Shown: piece by piece, positions 1,718-55,090 of the stretch
Numbering within the stretch: position 1 is the stretch's first letter
Layout: each line of letters starts with the position of its first letter
Source: Actinomycetota bacterium
Lineage (GTDB): Bacteria; Actinomycetota; CADDZG01; WHSQ01
Reading direction: 5' to 3'
Length of the DNA stretch: 55,090 bases
Assembly (NCBI GenBank): GCA_030446465.1
Contig: JAUJNI010000002.1
Location: 982,467 to 1,037,556 of the forward strand
Notes under the pieces: generated by a model
Seen by the model: the letters and a program-made list of their open reading frames with translations, nothing else
The model's database searches: none
What the model was told of the DNA's origin: nothing
Translations under genes and position numbers: made by a program

Positions 1718-3663
1718 CTACAGAGACAGCTCGAGGCGTCGCTCGGCCACCTCTTCGGCGAGTCCATTCACGAAATCGTCGAGAGGGGTCCCATGCGACG
1801 CTTCACCGGAACGGCGACGGATGGAGACGGTCTTGGACTCGACCTCGGTGTCCCCCACCACCACCATGTAAGGGACCTTCTGCAACTGCTGGTGACGGAT
1901 CTTGGCCCCCATGGTGTTGTCGGAGCGATCGACCTCGACCCGCAAGGACCGCGCCGCCGACGCCGCTGCTACCTCGTCGGCGTACTCGAGATGGCGGTCG
2001 GCGATCGGTATGACCACAGCCTGCACCGGCGACAGCCAGGTCGGAAAGGCGCCCGCGAAGTGCTCCACCAGCACGCCCATGAAGCGCTCGATTGCCCCGT
2101 AGAGCGCGCGATGGATCATCACCGGACGCATGCGTTCGCCCCTCGCGTCGACGTACTCGAGCCCGAAGCGCTCGGGGAGCTGAAAGTCGACCTGAATGGT
2201 GCAGAGTTGCCAGTAACGTCCGATCGCATCGCGCACATCGATGTCGATCTTGGGGCCGTAGAAGGCGCCGTCGCCTGCCTCCACCACGTAGTCGATGCCG
2301 GCGTTCGAGTGCCTCAGGAATCGCCGCCTCGGCAAGCCCCCACAGATCATGTGAGCCGATCGCGTCGTCGGGCTTGGTCGAGAACCTCACCTTGTCGGGC
2401 CCCAGTCCCACGGTGCCGTAGAGCGACCTCAGGAAGTCGATGACGCCGATCATCTCGTCGACCACCTGGTCGGGACGGCAGAAGATGTGCGAGTCATCCT
2501 GGGTGAAGCCCCGCACCCTCAACAGGCCATGAACCACTCCCGAGCGCTCGTAGCGGTAAACCGTCCCGAGCTCTGACAGCCGTATCGGCAGCTCTTTGTA
2601 GGAGCGGGTCTTCGACTTGTACACGAGCACGTGAAAGGGGCAGTTCATCGGCTTGACGAAGTACTCGGCTTCCTCGAGTTGCATCGCCGGATACATGCTG
2701 TCGCGGTAGTACCCGAGATGGCCCGACGTCTCCCACAACGCAGCCTTTCCGATGTGGGGGCTGAACACGGGCTGGTAGCCGCGCTCGAGGTGCATCGAGC
2801 GCGCAAGGTCCTCCAACACGGCGCGCACGGTCGCACCCTTCGGATGCCATACCGTGAGACCCGGGCCCCACCTCGTCGGGCCATGAGTAGAGCTCCAGCT
2901 CTCGGCCCAGCTTGCGGTGGTCGCGCTTGGCCGCCTCCTCGAGCCGGCGCAGGTAGTCGGCAAGTGCGTCCCTGGACTCCCACGCAGTCCCGTAGATGCG
3001 CTGCAGCATCGGGCGCTTCTCGTCACCGCGCCAGTAGGCCCCCGCACTCCGAAGCAGCTTGAACGCCTTGATCCTGCCGGTGCCGGGAACGTGGGGGCCG
3101 CGGCAGAGATCGACGAAGGCGGGCTCCTCTTCGCCGGCCGCCCGGTTCGAGTAGATGGACAGGACCTCCCCCTCGGCCCCCTGCTGCTCGAGCGCCTCGG
3201 CCCCCGCTGCGACGCCTTCGATGATCTCGATCTTGTAGGGCTGGTCGGCAAAGAGATCGACCGCCTCCTCCCGCTCGACCTCACGTCGCTCGAACCGCTG
3301 GTTTGCCTTGACGATCCTGCGCATCTCCGCCTCGATGCGCTCGAGGTCCTCCGGCGTGAACGGATGCTCGACGTCGAAGTCGTAATAGAAGCCGTCCTCG
3401 ATGGGCGGGCCAATCGCAAACTTGGCCCCGGGATAGAGATTGAGAACCGCCTGTGCCAGGACGTGCGCGGTCGAGTGCCTAAGGATGGTCCTGCCCCGGT
3501 CCTCGGTCATGGTGAAGACCTGTACATCCGCGCCCGATCCGGGGACGAATGCAAGGTCTCGTTCTCTGCCGTCGACCAGCAGGGCGACTGGAGAGCTCAC
3601 GGAAGCGGCCCGAGCGAGCTGGAATCCGTCGCTTACGCCATCAGCTCTTACAGAAGCGGTCAT
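1718..3663 (-). CDS. thrS: Threonyl-tRNA synthetase, broken by two frameshifts
   Basis: Charges tRNA-Thr with threonine. Three frames must be joined. The first (from 3663) carries a short TGS-like N-terminus, the editing domain (HSTAHVLAQAVLNLYPGAKF, and later CRGPHVPGTGRIKAFKL) and runs to ELYSWPDEVGPG. The second carries LTVWHPKGATVRAVLEDL, motif 2 (TVYRYERSGVVHGLLRVRGF) and IGSHDLWGLAEAAIPEAL. The third resumes at NAGIDYVVEAGDGAFYGPKI and ends with the anticodon-binding domain. The first break is at a C run (2866-2869, one base too many); the second is near 2295-2305. Conservation continues across both, and thrS is essential, so I read these as sequence errors. The start ATG overlaps the stop of the upstream peptidase gene (ATGA, 3660-3663), implying translational coupling. 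No T-box leader is visible. Confidence 0.9.
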
Positions 3664-39598: not shown

Positions 39599-41585
39599 CG
39601 TCGCGCAGCTCCCGTTTCAGATCCCGGACCTCGTCGCGGATCCGCGCCGCGTACTCGAATCGAAGATCCTCGGCCGCTTGATGCATCTCCTCCTCGAGCT
39701 GCATGACGAGACGCTTGAGCTCGTCCGGGCTGCCCCCGAACGGCTCGCTCCTACGGCTTTTGGACTTGGTGGGCACGGTCTCCTTGCGGGGGCGCCCGAA
39801 CAGCAAGATGTCCGACACCGCCTTGCGGATGCTCTGCGGATCGATACCGTGGGCGGTGTTGTAGTCGAGCTGGATCTGGCGGCGTCGCTGGGTCTCCGAG
39901 ATCGCCCTGCGCATTGAGTCGGTGAGCTCGTCGGCGTACATGATGACCTGGCCGTCGACGTTTCGAGCCGCGCGCCCGATCGTCTGGATGAGAGAGGTCT
40001 GAGAGCGCAGGTAGCCCTCTTTGTCTGCATCGAGGATCGCGACGAGCGAGACCTCCGGCAGGTCGAGGCCCTCTCTCAAGAGGTTGATGCCGACTAGAAC
40101 GTCGAACTCGCCGGTGCGGAGGTCGCGCAGTATCTCGATGCGCTCGACCGTGTCTATGTCGGAATGCAGGTAACGGACCCTGATGCCGGACTCGAGCAGG
40201 TAGTCGGTGAGGTCCTCTGCCATCTTCTTGGTGAGCGTGGTGACCAGCACGCGCGCGCCGGCTTCCGTTCGCCCGCGTATCTCCTCCATGAGGTCGTCGA
40301 TCTGCCCTTTGGTGGGGCGCACCATGACTTCGGGATCGATCAGACCTGTGGGCCGAACGATCTGCTCGACGGGGGGGCCGGACATCCGAAGCTCGAAAGG
40401 ACCAGGCGTGGCGCTCATCATTACGATCTGGTTGACGGAATCGAGGAACTCGTCGAAGCGGAGTGGGCGGTTATCGAGCGCGCTGGGGAGCCTGAAGCCA
40501 TGCTCGACGAGCGTGCGCTTGCGGCTGAGGTCTCCCTCGTACATGCCGTTGAGCTGCGGAACGCCGACGTGTGACTCGTCGATAACTACAAGGAAGTCCT
40601 TCGGAAAGTAATCGATCAGCGTGTTCGGCTTGGAGCCTGGGGGCCGGCCCTCGATGTGACGCGCGTAGTTCTCGATGCCGTTGCAGAAGCCGACCTCACG
40701 AAGCATCTCGAGGTCGTATTCGGTGCGCATCCGCAGTCGTTGCGCCTCGAGCAGCTTGTTCTGACCGGTTAGCTCCCGGAGGCGCTCGCCGAGCTCGATC
40801 TCGATCGCGGTGATGGCGCGCTGGAGACGTTCTTTGGACGCGACGTAGTGCGACGCCGGGTAGACCGTGACGTGATCGAGCTCTCCCGTGATCTCGCCGG
40901 TCAACGGGTCGAGCATGATGATCCGGTCGACCTCGTCGCCGAAGAGCTCGATGCGCACGGCCTTCTCCTCGTAGGCCGGAAAGATCTCGATCGTGTCGCC
41001 GCGCACCCTGAACTTGCCGCGGACGAAATTGACGTCGTTGCGCTCGTACTGGATGTCCACGAGCCTGTCCACGATGAAGTCGCGGTCGGCCGTGCCGCCT
41101 CTTGCGACATCGACTACCTGATTGAGGTACTCCTCTGGGGAACCGAGGCCGAAGATGCAGGAGACACTCGCGACGATGAGGACGTCCTCTCGTTGCAGCA
41201 GGGCGCTGGTCGCCGCGTGCCTCAGGCGTTCGATCTCGTCGTTGACCGAGGAGTCCTTCTCGATGTAGGTGTCGGACGAGGGGACGTAGGCCTCGGGCTG
41301 GTAGTAGTCGTAGTAAGAGACGAAGTACTCGACCGCGTTGTTGGGAAAGAACTGCTTGAACTCATTGCAAAGCTGAGCCGCGAGGGACTTGTTCGGCGCG
41401 ATCACCAGCGTCGGCTTCTGGATTTGCTCGAGGGCCCAGGCAACCGTCGCCGTCTTTCCCGTACCGGTCGCTCCGAGAAGCGTGGAGAAGTGCTCGCCCC
41501 CGAGAACGCGCTCCGCCAGGCCCCTTATGGCGTTGGGCTGATCTCCTGCCGGAGCAAAATCGGCTTCGACCTTGAACGGGGGCAT
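39591..41585 (-). CDS. uvrB: UvrABC excinuclease subunit B
   Basis: 664 residues, intact. Helicase-like subunit that verifies damage and recruits UvrC. Walker [18 protein letters not shown]; beta-hairpin [20 protein letters not shown] that inserts between strands; [20 protein letters not shown]; motif VI region [20 protein letters not shown]-terminal UVR domain ([20 protein letters not shown]) that binds UvrC. ATG start without a strong ribosome site. It lies 68 bases from the amidase stop upstream. Confidence 0.98.
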
Positions 41586-41653
41586 AGGCCCAGTTTAGTG
41601 ACCCCTAGTGACGTTCTTTCGCCGATGAGCGGGGTCGGAGGGGGGTCGTAGGG

Positions 41654-43060
41654 CTAAAGAACGCTGGGCGGGTGCCGGTGGGCCCAGGGACGGGCCTCTT
41701 CGACCTGGGCCGAGACGCGGAGCAACGTCGCCTCGCCGGCCGGTCCCCCGATGAGCTGAGTACCGATCGGCAGACCGTCCGAGCTCCACTGAAGAGGGAG
41801 CGAAACCGCGGGCTGGCCCGAAGCGTTCGCCGGCGCGGTGAAGGCGACGATGGTCGACGCTCGAGCCAGCTGGGCCCACGGGTCCGCCTCCTCGAACATC
41901 CACCCGACCGGCCGGGGAGTCACGGGCATGGTCGGAGTGAGCAGCAGCTCGTAGCGGTCCCACAGCGACATGATCCTTCGGACCGCGCCCGACAGGGCTG
42001 TTCCGGCCCTCAGGTAGTCGATCATCGAAGTCGACCTCGCGGACTCGGTAAGCATGCGGTTGAGCGGCTCGGTCTGCGCCACGTCGAGATCGAGAAAGTC
42101 GGCGGCAAGGCCCTGAAAGATCGTGATGAAAGAGGCGGACAGCGTGGGATCGAACCAGCCGGGGTCCGCCTCCTCGACGGTGTGGCCGAGTGACTCCAGC
42201 AGCTCGGCGCTTTCGGTCGCCGCTTGCGCGACCTCGGGCTCCACCTCGGCCTCGATGGCGGGCTGGAGCGTGAAGGCGATCCTGAGGGGGCCCGGGTCTG
42301 CGCCGACCTCCTCGATGAAGGGACGCTGGGGCGGGGGGGCCCAGTGCGGGTCGCCGATTTCATAGCCTGACATGACGTCGAGGACCGCTGCGGCGTCCGC
42401 CACGGTTCTGGCTATGGGGCCGTCCGTTGCAAAGCCGAACAACGAGTCTCCCGCCGGCGCATGGGAGATGCGACCCCTCGCCGGCTTGATCCCGAACAGA
42501 CCGCAGCAGGAGGCCGGTATGCGAATCGAGCCGCCGCCGTCGCTGCCTTGGGCCACGGGACAAAGACCCGCAGCAAGCGCAGCGGCCGCTCCCCCGCTAG
42601 AGCCGCCCGGGGTGCGATCCAGGCTCCACGGATTGCGGCAGACACCGTTCAGCTCCGACTCGGTCTGAGGGACCGTCCCGAACTCGGGGGTGTTGGTCTT
42701 GCCGATCAGGATGAAACCGGCGTCTTTGAGGCGTTTGACCATAGCGGTGTCCTGGGCCGGCACGTAGTTTGCGTACTGCTTGCAAGAGAAGGTGGTGCGT
42801 ATGCCGGCCGTCTCGTTGAGGTCCTTTATCGCGATAGGCACCCCGTGGAAGGGAGGAAGCTCCTCCGTGGTCCCGATGCGCTGCTCCGCCTCTCGGGCCG
42901 CGGCAACCGCCGAATCGACGACGGTGACGTAAGAGTTGAGCGCGGGATCGAGCCTGTCGATGCGCTCCAAGTACAGCTCCATTAGCTCGACCGGCGAGAC
43001 CTCTTGCTTGCGAACGAGATCGGCCTGCTCGGTGGCCGGCATGAAAGCGATATCGGACAT
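41654..43060 (-). CDS. Amidase signature family hydrolase
   Basis: 468 residues. Hydrolyses amide bonds through a Ser-cisSer-Lys triad: Lys in GVPIAIKDLNETAG, cis-Ser and flanking glycines in TPGGSSGGAAAALAAG, and the nucleophile Ser in SDGGGSIRIPASCCG. Similar in length to GatA but not beside gatB or gatC, and more like catabolic amidases or 6-aminohexanoate-cyclic-dimer hydrolases. A promoter with an overlapping palindrome lies about 140 bases upstream. Confidence 0.9.
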   Translation of the reverse strand: MSDIAFMPATEQADLVRKQEVSPVELMELYLERIDRLDPALNSYVTVVDSAVAAAREAEQRIGTTEELPPFHGVPIAIKDLNETAGIRTTFSCKQYANYVPAQDTAMVKRLKDAGFILIGKTNTPEFGTVPQTESELNGVCRNPWSLDRTPGGSSGGAAAALAAGLCPVAQGSDGGGSIRIPASCCGLFGIKPARGRISHAPAGDSLFGFATDGPIARTVADAAAVLDVMSGYEIGDPHWAPPPQRPFIEEVGADPGPLRIAFTLQPAIEAEVEPEVAQAATESAELLESLGHTVEEADPGWFDPTLSASFITIFQGLAADFLDLDVAQTEPLNRMLTESARSTSMIDYLRAGTALSGAVRRIMSLWDRYELLLTPTMPVTPRPVGWMFEEADPWAQLARASTIVAFTAPANASGQPAVSLPLQWSSDGLPIGTQLIGGPAGEATLLRVSAQVEEARPWAHRHPPSVL

Positions 43061-43142
43061 CGGCGGAGTGTATCCCCGAGCCTTTCCCCTTTGTTCCTAC
43101 ACGTTCCTCGCATAGCAAGGCTCCCGTAGGAAAGAAAGACGA

Positions 43143-43166
43143 ACGGCGACCCTGAAGGATCGCCGT
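43143..43166. other. Hairpin in the amidase leader region
   Basis: Seven-base perfect inverted repeat ACGGCGA/TCGCCGT with a ten-base loop that can add a CC/GG pair around TGAA. It lies in the divergent region between amidase and methyltransferase, where a terminator is not expected, so an mRNA leader structure or regulator site is possible. Confidence 0.45.
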
Positions 43167-43199
43167 CCCATCCGACATCTTCCTCTCGGTCACGCCGCA

Positions 43200-43228
43200 G
43201 ACCGATAGACGCATCGGTCACTTGTCAA
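43200..43228 (-). promoter_or_regulatory. -35 element with adjacent operator-like palindrome
   Basis: The minus strand has TTGACA (43223-43228) within ACTTGACAAGT, followed closely by the perfect inverted repeat GACCGAT-N6-ATCGGTC (43200-43219), where a -10 would fall. The layout is that of a repressor site in a promoter driving the amidase, 140 bases downstream. No convincing -10 match is seen. Confidence 0.42.
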
Positions 43229-43268
43229 GTTGCGTCCGGCCGCGCCGGATATCAAGGTGGTTGCAGCC

Positions 43269-43886
43269 ATGGAGGAGCGACTGAAGTCGGCCGCGGCGCA
43301 GGCAATCGGGTTCATGCCAGAGCACGAGGGGCTCGCGCTCTATCGCGCCGGAGTGCAGGCTGCCCCCAACGGCCCGCTGCTCGAGATCGGCAGCTACTGT
43401 GGCAAGTCGGCCGTCTATCTTGGCGCCGCGGCGAAGGAGCACGGAAGCGTGCTCTTCTCAATCGACCACCACAGGGGCTCCGAGGAGCAGCAACCGGGCC
43501 ACGACTACTTCGACCCGCGTCTGGTCGACGAAGACAGACGCGTGGACACGCTGCCCGCGTTTCGTGCCACCGTGGAACAGGCAGGCCTGCAAGACACGGT
43601 TATCGGAATCGTCGGCTCGTCGGGGGTTGTCGCATCACAGTGGGCAACGCCGCTCGCCCTTGTCTTCATCGACGGCGGCCACAGCGAGCGGGCGGCGCAG
43701 GCCGACTACGACAGTTGGGCCCCCCAGGTAATGCCCCAAGGGCTGCTCGTCATCCACGACGTCTTCGAAGACCCGGCGGCGGGTGGCCGCGCGCCGTGGA
43801 ACGTCTATCGCCGAGCGCTCGACTCCAGACGGTTCGTGGAGGTCGCCGTCGAAGACACTCTGCGCGTCCTGCAGCGGGTCGAGTAG
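43269..43886 (+). CDS. Class I SAM-dependent methyltransferase (Methyltransf_24-like)
   Basis: 205 residues from the ATG at 43269, with AAGGTGG about nine bases before; a TTG at 43230 would add 13 residues. The SAM loop is GPLLEIGSYCGKSAVYLGAA, the acidic strand-2 end LFSIDHHRGSEEQQ, and ALVFIDGGHSERAAQADYDS the next motif. The family methylates sugars or small molecules, with predicted metal ligands in IDGGH and VIHDVF. Its end overlaps that of the toroid gene on the other strand by 82 bases, a long overlap that may reflect a frame error in the toroid gene. Confidence 0.8.
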   Translation: MEERLKSAAAQAIGFMPEHEGLALYRAGVQAAPNGPLLEIGSYCGKSAVYLGAAAKEHGSVLFSIDHHRGSEEQQPGHDYFDPRLVDEDRRVDTLPAFRATVEQAGLQDTVIGIVGSSGVVASQWATPLALVFIDGGHSERAAQADYDSWAPQVMPQGLLVIHDVFEDPAAGGRAPWNVYRRALDSRRFVEVAVEDTLRVLQRVE

Positions 43887-44932
43887 CGGAGCGACGGCAG
43901 CTCGAGGGTTCGGCCGAGAGACGTCCCGGCCCCGGCGGCGGGGCCCGCATCACCGAAGAAGGCAGAGGTGGGGCCGGAGCCTTGCAGCACGTCGGCCGCG
44001 AGAACCACAGCCGCCGCGCTCCAGGTCGTTCGTTCCACAGGCCAGCGCGTGCCGTCCGGGAAGGTGGCGCCCGTCCAATAGGCGCCGTCCTCGCCGCGCA
44101 GGTGCTGTACCCATCTCAACAGCAGAGTCGCATCCTCGTACCGGCCCACTGCCGCAAGCGCGATGGCAAGCTCACAGGTCTCCGCCGTCGTTACCCACGG
44201 CCGATCGGACACGCATCTGGCCCCCAGCCCCGGCACCACGAAGGTGTCCCATCGTTCGTCGAGTCGCCGGACGGCGGCCTCTCCCCGAACCCCTCCCCCT
44301 AGGACCGGGTAGTACCAGTCCATCGCAAACCGTTTCTTGGGCTCAAACGATGGAGGCGTCCGAGTGAGGGCGTCCGACAACGCGCCGAGGGCGAGCTCCC
44401 ACTCCGGTTGCGACTTTCCGACCAGCTCGGCCAGCGCCAGCGCGCAGCGAAGGCTCAAGTGGATGCAGGAGCATGAGGTCACCAGGGCGCGGGGCCAGGC
44501 GCGCAGCTTGGAGTCCCGGGCCCAGTAGATCCCGCCGTCGGCGCTCTGCAGCTCGAGGACGAACCCCATTGCCTGCTCGATCATCGGCCACATCTGCGCC
44601 ACGAAGGCCTCGTCCTGGGTGGCGAGGAAGTGGTGCCACACCCCCGCGGCGCAGTAGGCCACGAAGTTGGCGTCGAGGGTCGGATCGAGGACCCGGCCCT
44701 CCTGCAACGAGGCGGGCCACGCTCCGTCGCCTCTCTGGGTGCGCGCCAACCATTCGTAGGCCCGTCGCGCCTCGGCGTGAAGGCCCCCGACGTCCAGCGC
44801 CATGGCGGCCTCGACGTGGTCCCACGGATCGACGTGGCGGCCCTCGCTCCACGGGATCGATCCGTCCGGTTGCTGCTGCTCGCCGATCCACTGGACGGTG
44901 CGAGCGACGTCGCGTGCCGATAAAGAGCTCAC
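43805..44932 (-). CDS. Alpha/alpha-toroid protein, prenyltransferase/terpenoid-cyclase-like
   Basis: 375 residues from a GTG that overlaps the stop of the upstream methyltransferase (GTGA). Repeated Q..DG.xxW elements, WIGEQQQPDGSIPWSEG, LARTQRGDGAWPASLQEG, LELQSADGGIYWARDSK and VQHLRGEDGAYWTGATF, mark a six-hairpin toroid as in terpenoid cyclases or glycan lyases/hydrolases. Conserved aromatic and acidic residues (DPTLDANFVAYCA, WYYPVLGGG, RPWVTTAETCE) suggest a catalytic cavity. The last about 45 residues are low-complexity Arg/Ser/Thr and may come from reading past a missed stop. Last gene of the GT operon. Enzyme activity unknown. Confidence 0.72.
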   Translation of the reverse strand: MSSLSARDVARTVQWIGEQQQPDGSIPWSEGRHVDPWDHVEAAMALDVGGLHAEARRAYEWLARTQRGDGAWPASLQEGRVLDPTLDANFVAYCAAGVWHHFLATQDEAFVAQMWPMIEQAMGFVLELQSADGGIYWARDSKLRAWPRALVTSCSCIHLSLRCALALAELVGKSQPEWELALGALSDALTRTPPSFEPKKRFAMDWYYPVLGGGVRGEAAVRRLDERWDTFVVPGLGARCVSDRPWVTTAETCELAIALAAVGRYEDATLLLRWVQHLRGEDGAYWTGATFPDGTRWPVERTTWSAAAVVLAADVLQGSGPTSAFFGDAGPAAGAGTSLGRTLELPSLRYSTRCRTRRVSSTATSTNRLESSARR

Positions 44933-45663
44933 GCGGCAACCTTGGAGGTGCTGGGTGCGGCGACCTTTGAGGCATAGAGGACGAGGCTCTTTCCGAGAAT
45001 CGGGTTCAGGATCCGCTCGAGCGCTCGTACGGCCCGCGGCTTGTTCATGAGGTCCCACACGAGAAAGCGGTGATAGAGGGCCGGCACCCTGGCGGTGTCG
45101 TTGTCGATCCCGAAGAGGCACTTGAGCCACCAGTAAGGCGAATGGAGGGCGTGGGAGAAGTGCGTGTCGACGACCTCGAAACCAGCCTCCCGCAGCTTAG
45201 AGATCAGCTCGGGGGCACGGTAGATGCGCACGTGGCCGCCGGGAACCGAGTGATACCGGCGCGACAAGGCCCAGCACACTCGCTCCGGCCACCAGCGAGG
45301 AACGGTTACGGCGAGACTGCCGCCAGGCTTGAGCACGCGGCCTATCTCGGCCAGCGCGTCGCGGTCGGCGACAACGTGCTCGAGCACCTCGGAGGCGATC
45401 ACTAGGTCGAAGGCGCCGTCGGTGAAGGGAAGCGCGCAAGCGTCTGCCTGGGTGAAGAGCGAGTGGGGAGCCGGCCGGCGGCCGGCAGTGAGGAGCGAGA
45501 CAGTGTCCGCGGCCTCCTTCAACGGCGCGAGGTTCACATCGGCGGAGACCACCTTTAGGCCCCGCAGCAGCGCCTCGAAGGTGTGGCGGCCTGCGCCGCA
45601 GCCAAGGTCCAGGACCAGCTCTCCGGGCCGGCCCCCCCAGCGGTCGAAGTCGAGGGTCAGCAC
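44929..45663 (-). CDS. Class I SAM-dependent methyltransferase
   Basis: 244 residues from the GTG at 45661-45663, which overlaps the glycosyltransferase stop by seven bases; the longer open frame upstream is a shadow of that gene. SAM loop LVLDLGCGAGRHTFEALLRG, then VVSADVNLAPLKEA, FDLVIASEVLEHV and RVLKPGGSLAVTVPRWWPER: a Methyltransf_11-type fold. The C-terminal part has aromatic patches (HSPYWWLKCLFG, YHRFLVWDLM) that could touch a membrane lipid. Middle gene of the three-gene operon, so a glycolipid or cell-wall glycan intermediate is a plausible substrate. Confidence 0.88.
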   Translation of the reverse strand: MLTLDFDRWGGRPGELVLDLGCGAGRHTFEALLRGLKVVSADVNLAPLKEAADTVSLLTAGRRPAPHSLFTQADACALPFTDGAFDLVIASEVLEHVVADRDALAEIGRVLKPGGSLAVTVPRWWPERVCWALSRRYHSVPGGHVRIYRAPELISKLREAGFEVVDTHFSHALHSPYWWLKCLFGIDNDTARVPALYHRFLVWDLMNKPRAVRALERILNPILGKSLVLYASKVAAPSTSKVAA

Positions 45664-46925
45664 CGCTCCAACACCTTCCTGTACTCCTCCACCGTCGCCC
45701 GGGCTGTCTCCCTCCACGTGAAGTGACGAACCCGCGCACGGGTGCGGGCTGCGGCCCCCATGCGCTCGCGCGCGGACCGGTCCTCGAGCAAGCGTCCCAG
45801 CCCGCCCGCAAGGGCTCCGGCGTCGCCCGGAGGGACCAATAGGGCCGTGTCGCCGTTGGTCCCCGCGATCTCCGGTAGAGCACCGACGTTGGTGGCGACC
45901 AAAGGGAGACCACATGCCATCGCCTCTATGGCCGGGAGTGAGAAACCCTCGTACAGCGAGGGCACCAGAGCGACCTCCGCCTCGGCAAAGAGCTCCACCA
46001 ACCGCAGAGAGTCGACCCGCCCCTCGAAGCGAACCGCCCCTTCGAGACCGAAGCGACGAACCGCGTCGCGCGCTGCAGGACCGTTGCCCCCTTTCCCCAC
46101 CACAACGAGCTCCGCATCAATTTCTGTGCGGAGCTTGGCCAGCGCCTCGATTCCGACCACGAGCCCCTTCATCGGCGCGTCGGAGCTTGCGAGGGTGATC
46201 ACGCAACCTGGTCGGCGCGCAACCCCCGACAACGGGCGGAAGAGGTCGGTGTCGACGCCGTTGTGCACGAGCGCAACACGATCGGGCACGACGGCGAGCT
46301 CCCTAATGACATCGTCACGGGCGGACTCGGAAACGGTGAGGAGCCGGGGCAGCGCCCGGGCCACGCGCCCCTGCATACGCGTGAAGCCGTACCACCGCCG
46401 CAGCGCCAGCCTCTTCTTCCGGTTCGGCGCCAGCGCCAGCTCCAGGCGCCGGTCGATGGAGATGGGATGATGCACGGTGGCGACGACGGGCAGGCCGGCG
46501 CGGCTTAACCGGAACAGCCCGTAACCGAGGCACTGGTTGTCGTGCACCAGGTCGAACTCGTCCGCTCGGTCGGCCAGCAGGCGCGCGACCCGAAGGCTGA
46601 AGGTCAGCGGCTCGGGAAAGCTCGCCGCGCACATCGCTGCGTACTCGAGCAGGTCGGTGGGGCCTCGGAGCTCCCCTCGGGAGGGCCTCCTAAAGGGATC
46701 CTCCGGCCGATAGAGGTCGAGGCTCGGCACCTTGGTAAAGGACACCGCGGAGTCGAGCTCTGGATACGGCTGCCCCGAGAAGACCTCGACGTCGTGCCCC
46801 AACTCGACCAAGGCCCGGCTGAGGTAATGGACGTAGACGCCCTGGCCTCCGACGTGAGGATGCCCCCGATAGGTCAACAGCGCTATTCGAAGAGGTCTCT
46901 TGGAGTCGGTCACCGGCGCACGCAC
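45657..46925 (-). CDS. Glycosyltransferase family 4 protein
   Basis: 422 residues, GT-B fold, retaining. N-terminal domain RIALLTYRGHPHVGGQGVYV and the loop FDLVHDNQCLGYGL; C-terminal nucleotide-sugar domain with VALVHNGVDTDLFRPL, VALVPSLYEGFSLPAIEAMA (the E-x7-E motif) and GLPLVATNVGALPEI. The GTG start at 46925 or a GTG four codons on; no clear ribosome site. It transfers a sugar from a nucleotide-sugar donor at the cytoplasmic membrane. First gene of the operon with the methyltransferase and toroid protein. Confidence 0.92.
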   Translation of the reverse strand: MRAPVTDSKRPLRIALLTYRGHPHVGGQGVYVHYLSRALVELGHDVEVFSGQPYPELDSAVSFTKVPSLDLYRPEDPFRRPSRGELRGPTDLLEYAAMCAASFPEPLTFSLRVARLLADRADEFDLVHDNQCLGYGLFRLSRAGLPVVATVHHPISIDRRLELALAPNRKKRLALRRWYGFTRMQGRVARALPRLLTVSESARDDVIRELAVVPDRVALVHNGVDTDLFRPLSGVARRPGCVITLASSDAPMKGLVVGIEALAKLRTEIDAELVVVGKGGNGPAARDAVRRFGLEGAVRFEGRVDSLRLVELFAEAEVALVPSLYEGFSLPAIEAMACGLPLVATNVGALPEIAGTNGDTALLVPPGDAGALAGGLGRLLEDRSARERMGAAARTRARVRHFTWRETARATVEEYRKVLERC

Positions 46926-47035
46926 ACAAGCAGTGAACGAGAGACGAAGTGTGCGCCTTGCCCTTCTCCGAAGCGGTTCAATCGCGAGGCTGCAGCAATG
47001 CTAGGCCGTCGGCCGATTACAGGGGTAAGAGAGCC

Positions 47036-47446
47036 TCATCGCTCTTGGCGAAGGCGCTGTGCCGTCTTCAGCGCCGCAAGCGCGAGCCAGGATCCCACGA
47101 GCGCGTACAGCCCGGGGTTACCGGTACCCCGCAAAAGGATGAGCCCGAGTTCCGGATCCAGGAAAGGGGGGGGTCGGCCGCCCACTACGATGCCTACTAT
47201 CAATACGAAGCTAGCGGCGAATAACGATGCCCCTGACCAGTACAGAAGGGCGGTAGTCAAGAAGCCGATGAAGAGGGTCATCAGCATTGGTGCCGTCGCA
47301 GGGCGAAGATCGTTCGACAAGTCTACTGCTTCAACCTGAACCGGATCCAGTATCCCCCAAGTTAAGACAGCCACTCCGGTACCCAACAGAATGTTGGTGA
47401 CGACCCGCAGCTTCTTTTCGGTCCCCCCACGACGAGCTTGACTCAT
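47036..47446 (-). CDS. Small membrane protein, four helices
   Basis: 136 residues. Charged start (RRGGTEKK) and four hydrophobic segments: VVTNILLGTGVAVLTWGILD, TLFIGFLTTALLYWSG, LFAASFVLIVGIVVGG and LYALVGSWLALAALKTAQRL. It is 30 bases downstream of the secreted protein gene on the same strand and may be the last gene of that islet operon. No family recognised. ATG start. Confidence 0.65.
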   Translation of the reverse strand: MSQARRGGTEKKLRVVTNILLGTGVAVLTWGILDPVQVEAVDLSNDLRPATAPMLMTLFIGFLTTALLYWSGASLFAASFVLIVGIVVGGRPPPFLDPELGLILLRGTGNPGLYALVGSWLALAALKTAQRLRQER

Positions 47447-47476
47447 AAATCACCCGCGTACTGAGTTCGACTCGCT

Positions 47477-47956
47477 TTATGGATAGTAATAGTCGTGAAT
47501 GTGCGTGTAGAGACCGTTTTGGCTGCATGGAGGGTACGCAGTGCTGTAGGATCCCTCACCCGACTGTCCTTTGAACTTATGTACGTAGCCAGCGGGCGTC
47601 CTGTCATAGCCACAGTGAAAATGCTGGATCCAGCGGGTGCGCCTTCCCCAGTACACTGACGGAGTACGCCGATATCCGCAGCCCTCGGAGGCCGGTCCAC
47701 AGTACACCGTTTCGTCACGGATCGAATCGCTATGATCGCCGCTTGGGGACACCCTAAATCTGACGTGGATGTAATCTACTCTTTCGTCGGCGTCAAGCCA
47801 TGCATATGCCCCATATCTGTCGTTAGAAGCGTTCCAAATCCTCCTATAGTGGCTCCAACTGTGCGCAGCGGCCGGGGGAGCGAATCCGACAAAAAGCCCC
47901 GTAAGAAAGAACCCAATGGTGAGGGCCCCCACGCAGAGACGCCAACTCTTGATCAA
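47477..47956 (-). CDS. Secreted Cys/His-rich protein, copy A
   Basis: 159 residues from a TTG start with a G-rich ribosome site about eight bases upstream. Signal peptide (ALTIGFFLTGLFVGFAPPAA) with cleavage after AAA. The mature part begins HSWSHYRRIWNASNDRYG and contains WLDADERVDYIHVRFRV, YCGPASEGCGYRRT, RRTRWIQHFHCGYDRTPAGY and the end HIHDYYYP. Four cysteines could form two disulfides; nine histidines suggest metal binding. It aligns nearly end to end with copy B at 48703-49185. Base composition is lower in GC than the neighbours. Not recognised as a known family. Confidence 0.7.
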   Translation of the reverse strand: MIKSWRLCVGALTIGFFLTGLFVGFAPPAAAHSWSHYRRIWNASNDRYGAYAWLDADERVDYIHVRFRVSPSGDHSDSIRDETVYCGPASEGCGYRRTPSVYWGRRTRWIQHFHCGYDRTPAGYVHKFKGQSGEGSYSTAYPPCSQNGLYTHIHDYYYP

Positions 47957-48021
47957 GGTCTCGACCCCCCTGCTTCGTTCCCACCTAAAATGATCCCGTG
48001 AGACAACGTACTCCCGCCCCT

Positions 48022-48651
48022 CTACTGCAGTCGGTAGGGTTCAGTAGCTTTCAACAGCTCAGGCCACAGAAGTAAGGTAGAAACCTCACCACTATCAGAC
48101 CCCGCGACAATATCGGTCACTCGATTCGCGGCAACGCCTTGAACGACCCCCACGACGGCGTGTGGGGAGTCGATGTAGCTGAGAACTATCCCTTGACTCT
48201 CGTACGTCGATGAAAGATATCCATGCCACTCTTGGTAATCGGGCGCAATATCGGCGCGGGGCAACAGCAGCCACACGGCCACGAGATTCCCACCTTCGTC
48301 GGTGAACTCTAGGAATGCGCCATCAACCACGTTAGCAACGTTGTCTTCTAGGCATGTCCAATTACCTATGTTGAATCGCTTGCCCACAAGAGGACCCGGG
48401 ATAGTGATCTGTTTTCCCAAACCCGACGCTGCGAAGCCATCGTCAGAGAGACCTAAAGCCAGCCCGTTCACTATGGGCGCGCAGGGTGCATCACTCGGGA
48501 CGGTAATGGCTAAGGGGCTTGCCGGAGCTGGTTCGACATCTTCCGCGACATAGGGATCTTCCGTGTTGCCAAGGACGGACGATGAAGAGAAGCCTATCAA
48601 AAGCAGCGCCGCGACGAAGAAGCAGGACGTTGCCACACGTAGAGGTTGCAC
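48022..48651 (-). CDS. Secreted protein of unknown function
   Basis: 209 residues from a GTG with AAGGAG about ten bases upstream. Signal peptide RVATSCFFVAALLLIGFSSS. The mature part is beta-rich and hydrophilic, with two cysteines (SDAPCAPIVNGLALGLSDDG and NIGNWTCLEDN) and a C-terminal WPELLKATEPYRLQ. It sits between the two paralogous secreted genes, 51 and 65 bases from them, all in one direction. No similarity to the paralogues is seen. Low GC like its neighbours. Confidence 0.62.
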   Translation of the reverse strand: MQPLRVATSCFFVAALLLIGFSSSSVLGNTEDPYVAEDVEPAPASPLAITVPSDAPCAPIVNGLALGLSDDGFAASGLGKQITIPGPLVGKRFNIGNWTCLEDNVANVVDGAFLEFTDEGGNLVAVWLLLPRADIAPDYQEWHGYLSSTYESQGIVLSYIDSPHAVVGVVQGVAANRVTDIVAGSDSGEVSTLLLWPELLKATEPYRLQ

Positions 48652-48702
48652 TTCTAGTTATCTCCTTCTGTTCCGGCGGTTCTAAGCATGACGAGGAACT
48701 CC

Positions 48703-49185
48703 CTATGGGTAATAGTAGTCATGAAGGTGACCGTAGAGACTGTTCGAGTTGCATGGGCCGTAAAGCGCACGAGGTGTCGTGTCGTTAGCCCTTCCGAGGA
48801 ACTTGTGCACGTAACCAGCAGGGGTCCTGTCGTAGCCACAGTGCACGTGCTCTATCCAGCGCGTTCGTCTTTGCCAGTACGTTGACGTAGTTCTCCGGTA
48901 TCCGCAGCTTTCACTCGCCGGACCACAATAGAGCCCTTCTTGCCGAATAGGATCGTCCGAGATGCTGCTCTTGACCCTAAAACTGACATGCATGAAATCA
49001 ACCCGCTCGTCGGCATCAAGCCATGCGTATCCGCCGTATCTGTCGTTGGAAGTGCTCCAAATCTTCCGATAATGGCTCCAACTGTGGGCAGCAGCCGGTA
49101 AAGCGACTCCTACAGAGAAAACCGAGATGAAGGTCGCAACGATGACCGGCCGCACGGCAAAACGACAATCGAGCCGCGTACTCAA
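48703..49185 (-). CDS. Secreted Cys/His-rich protein, copy B
   Basis: 160 residues from the TTG at 49183-49185, chosen because AGGAG lies about seven bases upstream and because it gives the same pre-mature length as copy A; an earlier TTG at 49224 lacks a site. Signal peptide VIVATFISVFSVGVALPAAA. Mature start HSWSHYRKIWSTSNDRYG, then WLDADERVDFMHVSFRV, YCGPASESCGYRRTTS, RRTRWIEHVHCGYDRTPAGY and end HLHDYYYP. All four cysteines and most histidines match copy A, while the loops diverge. First gene of the islet. Function unknown. Confidence 0.7.
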   Translation of the reverse strand: MSTRLDCRFAVRPVIVATFISVFSVGVALPAAAHSWSHYRKIWSTSNDRYGGYAWLDADERVDFMHVSFRVKSSISDDPIRQEGLYCGPASESCGYRRTTSTYWQRRTRWIEHVHCGYDRTPAGYVHKFLGRANDTTPRALYGPCNSNSLYGHLHDYYYP

Positions 49186-49337
49186 GCTTAGACTCCTACT
49201 GGGTCGCCTTATTGGTTCAGCCAAATCGGCTTCGGACGCTTAAGGACGAACGCGTCACGATCGCCGAATGGTATGATCCACACCTCCTTTTATCACGCTC
49301 CCCCGTCGATTACAAGCCTTCGTCAACGTACCTCGAG

Positions 49338-51092
49338 CTACAGGGAAGCTTCGTCCTGGGCGACCGGCAGAGTGAAGTAAAAGGTCGAACCCTCGCCGAC
49401 CGTCGACTCGAGCCACATGCTGCCGCCGTGCCCTTCGACGATTCCCTTGGTGATGTAGAGCCCCAGCCCGGTCCCCTTGGGGATCCAGGCGGGCTTCGGA
49501 AGGCTCACGAACTTAGAGAACAGTCGCTTTTGGTCCTCGGCCGAGATGCCGATGCCTTCGTCTCTCACCGCCACCTGCAAATTCTCCTGGTCGTCCAACA
49601 CTCTGGCCTCGACCGTCACAGACGTCCCCTCGGGCGAGTATCGGGTCGCGTTCGTCAGGAGGTTGAGCAACACCTGGCGGATCCGGTCCGCATCTCCTTG
49701 AACCTTGGGCAGGGTCATGGGCAGGTCCAGCCTGACCTCGTGTTGGGCCGACAGAGAGCTGTGCACCGAGACGATGCTCTCCACCAGCTCGGGCAGCGAC
49801 ACCGGCCCAAAGTCGTAGCGGAGCGTTCCCGACTCCATGCGCGACAGGTCCAGCAGATCGTTCACCAGCCGGGCAAGCCGCCCGACTTCCTTGGTGACGA
49901 TCCCAAGGATCCTGTCGCGTTTGGGATCCTCGAGGTCGGGCCACTGCCTCTGGAGGATCTCCCCGAAGCCAGAAATGGTGGTGATCGGACCCTTGAGCTC
50001 GTGGGCCAGCATCGACACGAACTCTGACTTCGTCTGGTCGGCCTCCCGCAGGCGCTGGACCAGCGCGTGCTCCCGCTCACGGGCATAGCTGGACTCGATG
50101 ATCCCGCTGAGACGGCTGGCGAGAATGGATGAGAATCGAAGGTCACCCTCGTCGAAGAAGCCCTTTCTGACATTGATCAGCTTGAGCACTCCAATCGGTC
50201 GGCCCCCCGTTGCGAGGGGGACGACCAACAGCGACTCGATGCCAAGGAGCTCGCGAAGTCTCTTGCTGACCCACGCGTCGTTGGCCGCATCGTTGGTAAT
50301 GAGCGGCGCCCTCGTCCTGAAGACACTTCCCGACAAAGATGGCTCGGACAGTGGAAGGCGAACCTCGGCGGCGTCGCGCTCGCTTATTCCGACGACCTGT
50401 GGAAGCGCCCGCAGCTCACCCGTGTCGTTGTCGTGCAGCAGGATCGCGACCTTCTCGCACTCGACCAGATCGGCCACTATGCGGACGGACTCGCCTATCA
50501 GCTCGTCGGCGCCGGAAGACGAGGTCAGCAATTGCGAGAGACGATGCAGCCCCTCTATCTCCTGACCCTGGCGTTTCAGGGTAAGTCGCAGGCGGGCGTT
50601 CTCGAGTGCGACCGCAGCCTGATGGCCCAGCATGCCCATCACCGTCAGGTCGTCCTCGCAGAAAGCTCCTCGAAGGGAGTCGGCCGCGCCGAGCACTCCC
50701 ACACATTCGTCCCCGAGGCACACCGGCGTGGCCACCACTTGCTTCGCCCTAATGTCGTCGGCAAGCAGCGAGCTGAGGTCTGGGTCGGACACCACGGCAT
50801 TGATGACCTCACCTCTGCCGCTCGCATAGATCCGCCTGATGATGCTGCGCTCTGCCATTGGCATCCGCTTGGGATCCTGGTCCCGCATGAACAGGGTGAA
50901 CTGCTGGCTGTCGGGCTCGGCCAGAAACAGCAAGGGCTGCCTGCAGGGGACCAGCTCCCACACGACCTGCAGGATCTCCTCGATGACTCGGTCCTCGTCC
51001 GCCTGGACCGCGCCGACGGAGGCGAGGCGCGACAGCGCGTTCAACTCGGCGAATCGCCGATCGACGCCCTGCGCTGGCTGCTCCACAGTCAC
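49338..51092 (-). CDS. Sensor histidine kinase with two GAF domains
   Basis: 584 residues from a GTG (a second GTG two codons on has GAGGT before it). No membrane segment: soluble. Two GAF domains (about 25-170, with VVATPVCLGDECVGVLGAAD; and about 190-340, with LLVVPLATGGRPIGVLKLIN), then HisKA (SMLAHELKGPITTISGFG, phospho-His) and HATPase (LLNLLTNATRYSPEG, RDEGIGISAEDQ, GTGLGLYI). The ligand of the GAF domains is unknown. No response regulator is adjacent, so it is an orphan kinase. It is followed downstream by the low-GC islet. Confidence 0.92.
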   Translation of the reverse strand: MTVEQPAQGVDRRFAELNALSRLASVGAVQADEDRVIEEILQVVWELVPCRQPLLFLAEPDSQQFTLFMRDQDPKRMPMAERSIIRRIYASGRGEVINAVVSDPDLSSLLADDIRAKQVVATPVCLGDECVGVLGAADSLRGAFCEDDLTVMGMLGHQAAVALENARLRLTLKRQGQEIEGLHRLSQLLTSSSGADELIGESVRIVADLVECEKVAILLHDNDTGELRALPQVVGISERDAAEVRLPLSEPSLSGSVFRTRAPLITNDAANDAWVSKRLRELLGIESLLVVPLATGGRPIGVLKLINVRKGFFDEGDLRFSSILASRLSGIIESSYAREREHALVQRLREADQTKSEFVSMLAHELKGPITTISGFGEILQRQWPDLEDPKRDRILGIVTKEVGRLARLVNDLLDLSRMESGTLRYDFGPVSLPELVESIVSVHSSLSAQHEVRLDLPMTLPKVQGDADRIRQVLLNLLTNATRYSPEGTSVTVEARVLDDQENLQVAVRDEGIGISAEDQKRLFSKFVSLPKPAWIPKGTGLGLYITKGIVEGHGGSMWLESTVGEGSTFYFTLPVAQDEASL

Positions 51093-51117
51093 ACCTCGTC
51101 TCTAGAAGCCCGACGAT

Positions 51118-51819
51118 TTAGAGCTTCGAGACTAGAGGGGGCAATTCCTCCATGGACTTGATGGTGGCTGTGTCTAAGTCGGGATAGCGGCTCACCCGAT
51201 CGATGAGGACCGTGTGCATCCCGACCGACCTCGCCGGGGCCACATCGAGCCGGGGAGAGTCCCCTACATGAACGGCACGCTCCGGCTCCACCCCGGCCCG
51301 CTCTAAGGCGAGCTCGTAGATCCTCGGGTCCGGCTTCTCGATCTGCACGAATCCGGATATCACCGACGTGTCGAACAGGGGGCCGACCTCGAGCTCGACG
51401 AGCCGTTCCTCGAGCCAGCCCTCGAAATTGCTGATCAGGCCGAGCCGGTAGCCGTCCTCTTGCAGTCGTTGCAGGACGGGAAGCACGTCGTCGAACAGCA
51501 TGTAAGAGGACCTGTCGGAGAACTTGGTCCTGAGCGCTTCGGCGAGGACATCGTCCTCGATCCCCCACTCTTTGAGAAAGCGCCGGTACAAGAAGCCCCA
51601 GAAGATCCTGGAGTCCTCATCCGAGAAGGAGGGGTTCTTCACTCCCGTGTCCTCCGCCAGGTCGATCAGGTGGGGGGCGAGCCTGTCTTGGACCTCCTGC
51701 ACCTGCTCCGGAGCGATGCTGACTCCGCTCTCGGCGCACACCTGTGAGAAAAGGCCGGCAAAAGAGGGATGGGGATGTAAAAGCGTGTCGCCTGCGTCGA
51801 AAAAGACAATCTCGATCAA
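51118..51819 (-). CDS. HAD family hydrolase
   Basis: 233 residues from a TTG that overlaps the coaE stop (TTGA). HAD motif I FFDAGDTLLHPHP, motif II LGLISNFEGW, motif III QIEKPDPRIYELAL, motif IV VHVGDSPRLDVAPARSVGM; the helical cap lies between motifs I and II. This is the REG-2/HDHD3-like branch of phosphatases. Substrate unknown. It is the gene after coaE, and a shared transcript with rpsA and coaE is likely. Confidence 0.88.
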   Translation of the reverse strand: MIEIVFFDAGDTLLHPHPSFAGLFSQVCAESGVSIAPEQVQEVQDRLAPHLIDLAEDTGVKNPSFSDEDSRIFWGFLYRRFLKEWGIEDDVLAEALRTKFSDRSSYMLFDDVLPVLQRLQEDGYRLGLISNFEGWLEERLVELEVGPLFDTSVISGFVQIEKPDPRIYELALERAGVEPERAVHVGDSPRLDVAPARSVGMHTVLIDRVSRYPDLDTATIKSMEELPPLVSKL

Positions 51820-52427
51820 GGCTTGGCTTCCCTCCTGCGAACCAGCTCTGGCCAGATCCGGTCCGCCGCCTCTGCCAGGTCCTCGAGGGAGCGGTCGTTT
51901 CTAACCACAAGGTCCGCCCTAGAGATGAGCTCCTCGGTGCTGATTTGGGAAGCCATTCGGGCCCGGATGTCGCTGATCGTCATGCCTCTGTCCCGGGCGA
52001 GCCGCTGCCTGCGCAGCTCGTCATCGGCTACCACCGCAACCACAACGTCGACGCTCTCCTGGAGCCCGACCTCGAGGATCAGCGCGGCGTCCAGAACCAC
52101 AATGGCATCGCTCTCAGCCAACCTCTCGAGTGAGTCTGCGATCCCCTTGAAGATCACCGGGTGGACGATGGCATTGAGGGCCGCCAGCTTGCGGGCATCA
52201 CCGAACACGATGCCGGCCAGTCGCTTCCTGTCGATCTCCATGGAGCCTGCGGAGAGGACCTCGTCCCCGAACTGGCCCACAACCGAGTGCCATGCGGGCT
52301 GGTCGGGCCTCAGTGCATCGCGACCCAATGAGTCGGCGTCGATCACCTGAGCGCCCCGCTCGGCGAGCAGCGCCGCTACGGTCGACTTTCCGGATCCGAT
52401 GCCGCCGGTGAGCCCGACTACCAGCAT
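51816..52427 (-). CDS. coaE: Dephospho-CoA kinase
   Basis: 203 residues. Last step of coenzyme A synthesis: phosphorylates the 3' hydroxyl of dephospho-CoA. P-loop VVGLTGGIGSGKSTVAALLA, QVIDADSLGRDAL, LNAIVHPVIFKGI and VVLDAALILEVGL are all family blocks; the RQRLARDRGMTISDIRARMA lid is present. ATG start, 22 bases downstream of rpsA, an arrangement common in Actinomycetota. Confidence 0.95.
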   Translation of the reverse strand: MLVVGLTGGIGSGKSTVAALLAERGAQVIDADSLGRDALRPDQPAWHSVVGQFGDEVLSAGSMEIDRKRLAGIVFGDARKLAALNAIVHPVIFKGIADSLERLAESDAIVVLDAALILEVGLQESVDVVVAVVADDELRRQRLARDRGMTISDIRARMASQISTEELISRADLVVRNDRSLEDLAEAADRIWPELVRRREAKP

Positions 52428-52449
52428 GCGATCGAGCAGGGACCGGCGC

Positions 52450-54213
52450 CTAAGACTGGCCCCGTTCCCGCTTCAGGTCCTGGACTATGGATTCGATCGA
52501 TTCGTCTGCGAGCCCTTCGGTCGGGTCCTGTGGTTCGGCGGACTCCGCAAGAGGGCCGCGACCTTCGCTTGCAGCGATCTCCTCGACCGCCTCTCCGGGG
52601 GCCGGACCGTCCTCGACCTGCTCTTGGGCGAGGCGCGCGTCGAGATCGGTGCCGTCACGTTCCGCGGCGGTTACGCCCTCCTGGTCGTGAAGAGGAGCAT
52701 CGGGCGACGTAAAGGCGGTCATCTCGGCCTGTTCGTGCTCTTCGCCCGGCGCCGCATCCGCCGCGGCCTGGGTGTCGTCGGTCGCTTCTGGAACGACCGG
52801 CTCCGCGACGAGCTCGGTCATCTGCTCGGCAGCCGAGGCGATCTCCCGGGCGCTCTCGGGCCGCTGACTCGAGTCCTCTGGAGCTACTCCCGCCGCCTCA
52901 GAGGACGCGCGCGCCTCCACTTCCATCTCGGCGTCTTGCGGCTCGAGCTCCATCTCGGGAGAGGGGGCCTCGGTGGGGATGTCTGGGGCGTCGGGGGCCG
53001 CGGTGTCCTGGTGGAGCGCTTGCTTGCGAGAGAGGCTGATGCGGCGACGGTCGAGATCGACGTCGATGATCTTGACCGAAATCGGATCGTGCACCCGGAC
53101 CTCGTCCTCGGGCTTCTCGACGTGGTGATTCGCCAGCTCCGAGATATGGACGAGGCCCTCGATGGCGTCGTCCAGCTCGACGAAAGCACCGAACGGCACC
53201 AGCTTGGTGACCCTGCCCTGGATGACGTCGCCGACCTCGTGGCTGCGGGCGAACTGCCGCCACGGATCCTCTTGGGTCGCCTTCAGCGACAGCGATACGC
53301 GCTCACGCTCGAGGTTCACGTCGAGGATCTCGATGTTGACCTCTTGGCCGACCTCGACGACCTCACTCGGGTGATCGACGTGCTTCCAGCTCAGCTCGGA
53401 CACGTGCACGAGCCCGTCGACTCCGCCGAGGTCAACGAACGCGCCGAAGTTGACGATCGAAGAGACCACTCCGGTCCTGACCTCGCCCTTCTTCAGTGAG
53501 GTCAGGAACTCCTGGCGCTGCTCTGCCTGCGACTCTTCGAGGAACTTGCGGCGGGACAGCACCACGTTATTGCGGTTTCTGTCGAGCTCGATGATCCGGC
53601 ACTCGAGCTCCTTGCCGACGTAGGGCTGAAGGTCTCTGACCCTCCTCATCTCGACCAACGAGGCGGGAAGGAAGCCGCGCAGGCCGATGTCCACGATGAG
53701 CCCGCCCTTGACCACCTCGATCACCGGGCCGCTGACGGTCCCGTCGCGGCCCTTGATCTCCTCGATCCGCCCCCACGCGCGCTCGTACTGAGCCCGCTTC
53801 TTGGACAGGATCAGGCGGCCGTCGGCGTCCTCCTTCTGAAGAACGAGGGCCTCGATCTGCTCCCCTATGTCGACCACCTGCGAAGGGTCGACATCGTTTC
53901 TGATGGAGAGCTCGCGCCCAGGGATCACGCCTTCCGACTTGTAGCCGATGTCGAGGAGGGTCTCGTCCTTGTCGATCTTCACGACGGTGCCGGTGACGAT
54001 GTCCCCCTCGTCGAACGGCTTGATGGTCTCGTCGATCGCCCGCATGAGCTCCTCTTGGGAGTCTCCGACGTCGTTCTCGACGATCGTCCCGCCGGCATAG
54101 GCCGCGCCCGAGGTGGAGGGGGCCGTGCGCGTTATGACACCGCCGCTGCCGTCGGGAATGGTCTCTTCGCCGGCAGCTCTGGGCGGCGCCTGAACATCTT
54201 CTTCTTGCATCAT
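52450..54213 (-). CDS. rpsA: 30S ribosomal protein S1
   Basis: 587 residues. Four S1 RNA-binding domains: about 67-140 (FDEGDIVTGTVVKIDKDETL), 153-225, 240-313 (GEVRTGVVSSIVNFGAFVDL) and 325-400 (GDVIQGRVTKLVPFGAFVEL). Domains 3 and 4 carry the FGAFVxL hallmark. A 65-residue Gly/Thr-rich N-terminal extension and a long acidic, Ala/Glu-rich C-terminal tail (about 185 residues) frame them; actinobacterial S1 commonly has such a tail. Docks mRNA on the 30S subunit. GAGGTGAG lies about 9-12 bases before the double ATG. A hairpin occupies the leader. Confidence 0.95.
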   Translation of the reverse strand: MMQEEDVQAPPRAAGEETIPDGSGGVITRTAPSTSGAAYAGGTIVENDVGDSQEELMRAIDETIKPFDEGDIVTGTVVKIDKDETLLDIGYKSEGVIPGRELSIRNDVDPSQVVDIGEQIEALVLQKEDADGRLILSKKRAQYERAWGRIEEIKGRDGTVSGPVIEVVKGGLIVDIGLRGFLPASLVEMRRVRDLQPYVGKELECRIIELDRNRNNVVLSRRKFLEESQAEQRQEFLTSLKKGEVRTGVVSSIVNFGAFVDLGGVDGLVHVSELSWKHVDHPSEVVEVGQEVNIEILDVNLERERVSLSLKATQEDPWRQFARSHEVGDVIQGRVTKLVPFGAFVELDDAIEGLVHISELANHHVEKPEDEVRVHDPISVKIIDVDLDRRRISLSRKQALHQDTAAPDAPDIPTEAPSPEMELEPQDAEMEVEARASSEAAGVAPEDSSQRPESAREIASAAEQMTELVAEPVVPEATDDTQAAADAAPGEEHEQAEMTAFTSPDAPLHDQEGVTAAERDGTDLDARLAQEQVEDGPAPGEAVEEIAASEGRGPLAESAEPQDPTEGLADESIESIVQDLKRERGQS

Positions 54214-54243
54214 CTAGTGGGGCTCACCTCGCAGCAGAAAATA

Positions 54244-54262
54244 GGCCCCCGAACCGAGGGCC
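54244..54262 (-). promoter_or_regulatory. GC-rich hairpin in the rpsA leader, near a -10-like TATACT
   Basis: On the minus strand GGCCCTCG-GTT-CGGGGGCC makes an eight-pair stem (one G-T) followed by TATTTT, 30 bases before the rpsA start. TATACT (54268-54273) lies just upstream, with a weak TTGAGC 19 bases further. If that is the promoter, the hairpin is at the very 5' end of the mRNA and might protect it; if transcription starts further up, it looks like an attenuator. Confidence 0.5.
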
Positions 54263-54353
54263 GAAGAAGTATACGGGGTGGCCCTGCTAGCTGCTCAAAC
54301 GAGCCAGGCCCGCCGGAACCGCCCCTACAGTCTGTGCCCTTACGCTGGTCGGC

Positions 54354-55090
54354 GTGGGGCGGTCGAAGGGGAGGGGGCTGAAGAGAGACCTACTGATTGT
54401 GCTCGGGCTCTGCCTTGCAATCGGCGCAGGGATATATGGAGTCTCACATGTGGTGTCGCCCGAGTTGCAGGCGCGCTACGGGGACCCCGAGGCGTTCGCC
54501 TTTCTCAATACCGACCCGCTAACGGACGAACCGGTTCGCTACAACCCGTGCGAGGCACTCCATTACGTCGTCAACCTGAAGCACGCGCCGCCGGGCGAGC
54601 TAGAGGACGTCCAGCGCGCCATGGAGATGACGAGTGAGGCGTCGGGCATCGAGTTCCTCTACGAGGGGGAGACGTCCGAGTCCCCGACCGCCCGGCGCCC
54701 CCTCTATCAACCGAGGCGCCACGGCCGTAGGTGGGCGCCGATCTTGATCGGATGGCTTCCCCAACGGGAGCTCGGGCGCACGATCTCGTTCGAGCACCCC
54801 GCAGGGCGCGGGGGCAGCGGCTATGCCCGCAATGAGGACGGCGAGCTGGTCTACGTCAGCGGCCAGGTCGTCCTCAATGCCGACGTCGATCTGGACGCAG
54901 GCTTCGGGCCCGGCAACAACTGGGGGGACGTGCTCCTTCACGAGGTCGGCCACCTCATGGGACTCGCCCATGTCGACGACCGATTTCAGATCATGTACCG
55001 CTACATTCAGGACGACTCGACCGAGTGGGGGCCAGGAGACAGAAACGGCCTTCGCCGATTAGGACGAGAAGCGGGCTGCTTGACCCCGCC
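54354..55090 (+). CDS. Matrixin-like zinc metalloprotease, 3' end outside window
   Basis: Open from GTG at 54354 to the window edge with no stop (245 residues seen). A basic start and hydrophobic segment (DLLIVLGLCLAIGAGIYGVS) form a signal or anchor. The zinc site is the metzincin motif HEVGHLMGLAH (bases 54939-54971), and the Met-turn follows at FQIMYRYI. The middle part, NPCEALHYVVNLKHAPPGEL and EDVQRAMEMTSEASGIEFLY, matches the start of the M10 matrixin fold (predicted strand and helix). Secreted or surface protease of unknown target. Divergent from rpsA, 140 bases apart. Confidence 0.82.
   Translation, partial: MGRSKGRGLKRDLLIVLGLCLAIGAGIYGVSHVVSPELQARYGDPEAFAFLNTDPLTDEPVRYNPCEALHYVVNLKHAPPGELEDVQRAMEMTSEASGIEFLYEGETSESPTARRPLYQPRRHGRRWAPILIGWLPQRELGRTISFEHPAGRGGSGYARNEDGELVYVSGQVVLNADVDLDAGFGPGNNWGDVLLHEVGHLMGLAHVDDRFQIMYRYIQDDSTEWGPGDRNGLRRLGREAGCLTP

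Follow-up and report, generated by a model that had tools for sequence, protein, structure and literature searches.

Two small ORFs on the minus strand of the 55,090-nucleotide stretch analyzed here (the window), paralogue A (47477-47956; 159 aa) and paralogue B (48703-49185; 160 aa), are real, related genes, and they almost certainly form an orphan pair, predicted to be exported, on an accessory islet. This islet (47036-49337) consists of four co-directional orphan ORFs downstream of a histidine kinase gene and is absent from relatives. The original prediction placed two paralogous ORFs at these positions, and both are present there; the duplication that it proposed is borne out by an alignment running from end to end, with 63% identity over the full length and one codon-sized gap, located in the mature part. 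B carries a predicted Sec signal peptide followed by a mature chain, HSWSH...HDYYYP, with 4 Cys and 8 His, and A shows the same architecture with 4 Cys and 9 His. The signal peptides ascribed to each copy, as to the ORF between them, were judged by eye and are signal peptide-like in sequence. The motifs said to be shared, HSWSHYR.IW, WLDADERVD, CGPASE.CGYRRT, and RRTRWI.H.HCGYDRTPAGY, were each found in the sequences, and the four cysteines and the HDYYYP end are fixed in A and B. Identity reaches 69% over the 127 columns of the mature part, against 11 identical columns out of 33 in the signal peptide, and at the DNA level the repeat shared by the two genes is 75% identical (195 + 157 nt). Differences in the mature part are distributed over the three codon positions as 35/22/58, with dN of ~0.23, dS of 1.35-1.8, and dN/dS of ~0.13-0.17; together, the codon-position pattern and the dN/dS ratio indicate that the annotated frame is the coding frame of both ORFs. 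The same ratio places A and B under purifying selection, which argues that they are real genes and that their similarity is not due to chance, and the high dS points to an old duplication. The duplication may have taken place inside the present lineage, a possibility raised by the fact that A and B (69% identity) have diverged no more than the kinases of neighboring genera (60%). A purine-rich, RBS-like stretch lies a few bases 5' of the start of B (AGGAG), of A (AGGGGGG), and of the ORF between them (AAGGAG).

The islet is the lowest-GC stretch of the window, with a GC content of 0.54-0.59 compared with 0.61-0.69 in its neighbors and a GC3 of 0.57-0.65 compared with 0.80-0.87 elsewhere (other genes checked by hand), and this base composition suggests that it was likely gained by horizontal transfer. 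In relatives, the gene order is rpsA-coaE-HAD-histidine kinase-(amidase)-uvrB. Kinase and amidase are separated by 6.3 kb here, as against 237 bp (genome G002) and 38 bp (G009). In three others (G001, G005, and G013) the amidase is absent at the locus and the kinase lies 30-217 bp from uvrB. The 6.3-kb interval is made up of the islet and a four-gene glycan cassette (43230-46925) encoding a methyltransferase, a cyclase-like protein, a second methyltransferase, and a GT4 glycosyltransferase, the last being the one gene checked against Pfam. This cassette is kept as a block in five other genomes of the family (L023-L027; in L026 the contig ends ahead of the fourth gene), and in three of them, those in which the kinase could be located too, the two are on separate contigs. 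Because the junction is closed in G002 and G009 and the cassette lies on another contig than the kinase in three other family genomes, the islet is best read as an accessory insertion; alternatively, it may have been lost from all relatives instead of being acquired horizontally. No Rfam match was found over 40000-55090. A single promoter-like match was obtained, no better than chance, and the strand of the genes has none.

The third ORF of the islet lies between the two copies (48022-48651, minus strand, 209 aa) and, in keeping with the original prediction of an unrelated secreted protein at this place, it is unrelated to A and B and has a signal-like hydrophobic N terminus, so that it is probably exported as well. 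The fourth (47036-47446, minus strand, 136 aa) encodes a small membrane protein with a weak match to DUF441 (24.2 bits, below the cutoff of 26.5) and has no relative among 60 related genomes. B, the middle ORF, A, and the membrane ORF follow one another in the same orientation, separated by 51, 65, and 30 bp, which makes it plausible that the four genes share a single transcript. Such an arrangement of small, Cys-rich, apparently exported proteins with an adjoining membrane ORF, on a low-GC accessory islet, would be compatible with secreted toxin or bacteriocin-like proteins having the middle ORF or the membrane ORF as immunity partner, a role that had been left open in the original prediction. 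We consider this very improbable: no match to toxin, bacteriocin, or defense models was obtained, no immunity partner is evident, the middle ORF itself looks exported, and both copies are under purifying selection rather than showing the rapid divergence that an arms race would predict. The toxin/immunity role thus finds no support.

Within the collections searched, A, B, and the middle ORF are taxonomically restricted (ORFans). None of the three matched Pfam, NCBIfam, PHROGs, or PADLOC, or gave a significant match to PDB sequences, and for A and B no Pfam family was returned at E <= 5. Searches of 60 related genomes and of 396 genomes sampled across the phylum recovered only the two copies themselves, and no relative was found in 395 genomes of another class or in 44 genomes of two further classes; these sets overlap in part and include all sampled sister genera. 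Plasmids and phages contained no relative by tblastn, nor did viral contigs and genome contigs by peptide patterns, which detect close relatives only; other phyla were covered by these patterns and by the tblastn searches of plasmids and phages. The source itself is probably actinobacterial, since the closest PDB entry to its ClpB is 6dju, the mycobacterial enzyme. Three borderline matches were set aside, as each is short and looks non-coding: the one in G059 (E 0.007) contains a stop and is overlapped on the opposite strand by a long 4-alpha-glucanotransferase-like gene, that in G637 (E 0.002) coincides with no ORF resembling a relative, and that in G733 (E 0.006) lies opposite an AAA-ATPase-like frame. 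The earlier statement that A and B belong to no known family is therefore upheld by all libraries and collections examined, and judging from their sequences the two represent a protein family not yet described. The lack of any homologue and the location in the lowest-GC stretch of the window would also fit recently arisen (de novo) orphan genes with little function that are merely tolerated, but a dN/dS far below 1 combined with a high dS speaks for long-standing selection at the protein level, and a signal peptide together with four fixed cysteines is likewise at odds with this origin, to which we give little credence.

As to function, the best lead is the signal junction, AAA|HSWSH, cleavage of which would expose an invariant N-terminal histidine. 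In both copies, AAA|HSW is the sole candidate site that conforms to the AxA rule, and it is at PAAAHSWSHYR that conservation begins, the remainder of the signal peptide having diverged between A and B. Once signal cleavage has freed a histidine as residue 1, its amino group and side chain can together chelate a transition metal in any fold, a principle through which four metalloprotein families of bacteria were identified (PMC12537917), and the same chelation underlies the copper histidine brace (PMC10952591). On this basis, A and B would be lineage-restricted small exported proteins (~127 mature residues) that stem from an old duplication and are kept by purifying selection; once exported by Sec, the precursor would be cleaved by signal peptidase at AAA|HSW so that histidine 1 becomes the N terminus, the mature chain would fold into a beta-rich domain with two disulfides, and an extracellular transition metal would be bound by histidine 1 together with at least one of the seven other invariant histidines. 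Taken as a whole, from export and cleavage point to disulfides and metal, this mechanism is tentative and, in our estimation, rather doubtful. The histidine, cysteine, tryptophan, and tyrosine columns of mature B are all kept in A (30/30, against 69% overall; hypergeometric 2.5e-6), a result that is suggestive only, because such residues are slow to change in most proteins, and with only two sequences the conservation of any single residue has little weight. AlphaFold models are poor for both B, with A as the alignment (mean pLDDT 49.6), and the middle ORF (pLDDT 43.5); the B model suggests six strands, consistent with a mostly beta domain in A and B, but it is too poor to position the seven histidines or to make a metal site visible. 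With this model as query, Foldseek retrieved 0 PDB matches at E <= 0.001, with a TM of ~0.2, and the result is unusable. No copper- or metal-handling gene occurs within the islet.

The same features can be read without a metal. A and B could be exported binding proteins of an adhesin-like, carbohydrate-binding, or enzyme-inhibitor type, in which the aromatic residues form the binding face and the cysteines serve stability only, and we place this not far below an even chance. The mature proteins are rich in aromatic residues (13-15 Tyr and 5 Trp), the poor model suggests six strands, the glycan cassette adjoins the islet, and the only PDB sequence match is to a chain named endoglucanase; this match, however, is at chance level (E 0.82), and no Pfam inhibitor or carbohydrate-binding family was matched. 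Our best guess is that A and B each consist of a ligand-binding domain that is exported, held by disulfides, and possibly able to bind metal.

Three known systems come closest to the pair. With the histidine-brace copper proteins (LPMOs such as AA10, CopC, and YcnI) and with the N-terminal-histidine families found by signal-strapping (DUF4198, DUF6702, and Ang-1/2), A and B have in common predicted export and a predicted cleavage just before an invariant histidine, and likewise further invariant histidines and a probably beta-rich fold. They differ in having four cysteines in ~127 residues and in showing no detectable sequence relationship to these families, neither LPMO, CopC, nor YcnI giving a profile or sequence match to A and B (Pfam at E <= 5; PDB sequences) and no histidine-brace family or solved structure being matched in sequence; metal binding is, moreover, only predicted here. 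The more specific reading, an undescribed family of exported N-terminal-histidine metalloproteins (copper or nickel) from an actinobacterial-type lineage, duplicated around an unrelated exported partner, is improbable. Metallopeptidase inhibitor I36 and other actinobacterial disulfide-bonded exoproteins are small, exported, and beta-rich, with paired cysteines. A and B are alike in size, predicted export, paired cysteines, and probable beta-richness, but they have no Pfam match to I36 at E <= 5 and space their cysteines as C-x6-C. The islet resembles ORFan gene islets in its lack of homologues, atypical GC content, and insertion between core genes, and is unlike them in that it contains two copies of old origin that purifying selection has clearly maintained. 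As a kind, pairs of exported orphan genes in islets of low GC are common, whereas the A/B family itself is undescribed, and should the N-terminal histidine of the mature proteins bind metal, the small set of N-terminal-histidine metalloproteins known so far would gain a disulfide-bonded family. Elsewhere in the window, the threonyl-tRNA synthetase gene (1718-3663, minus strand) is split over three frames (ORFs 2494-3663, 1803-3419, and 1718-2350), and these frameshifts are probably assembly indels.
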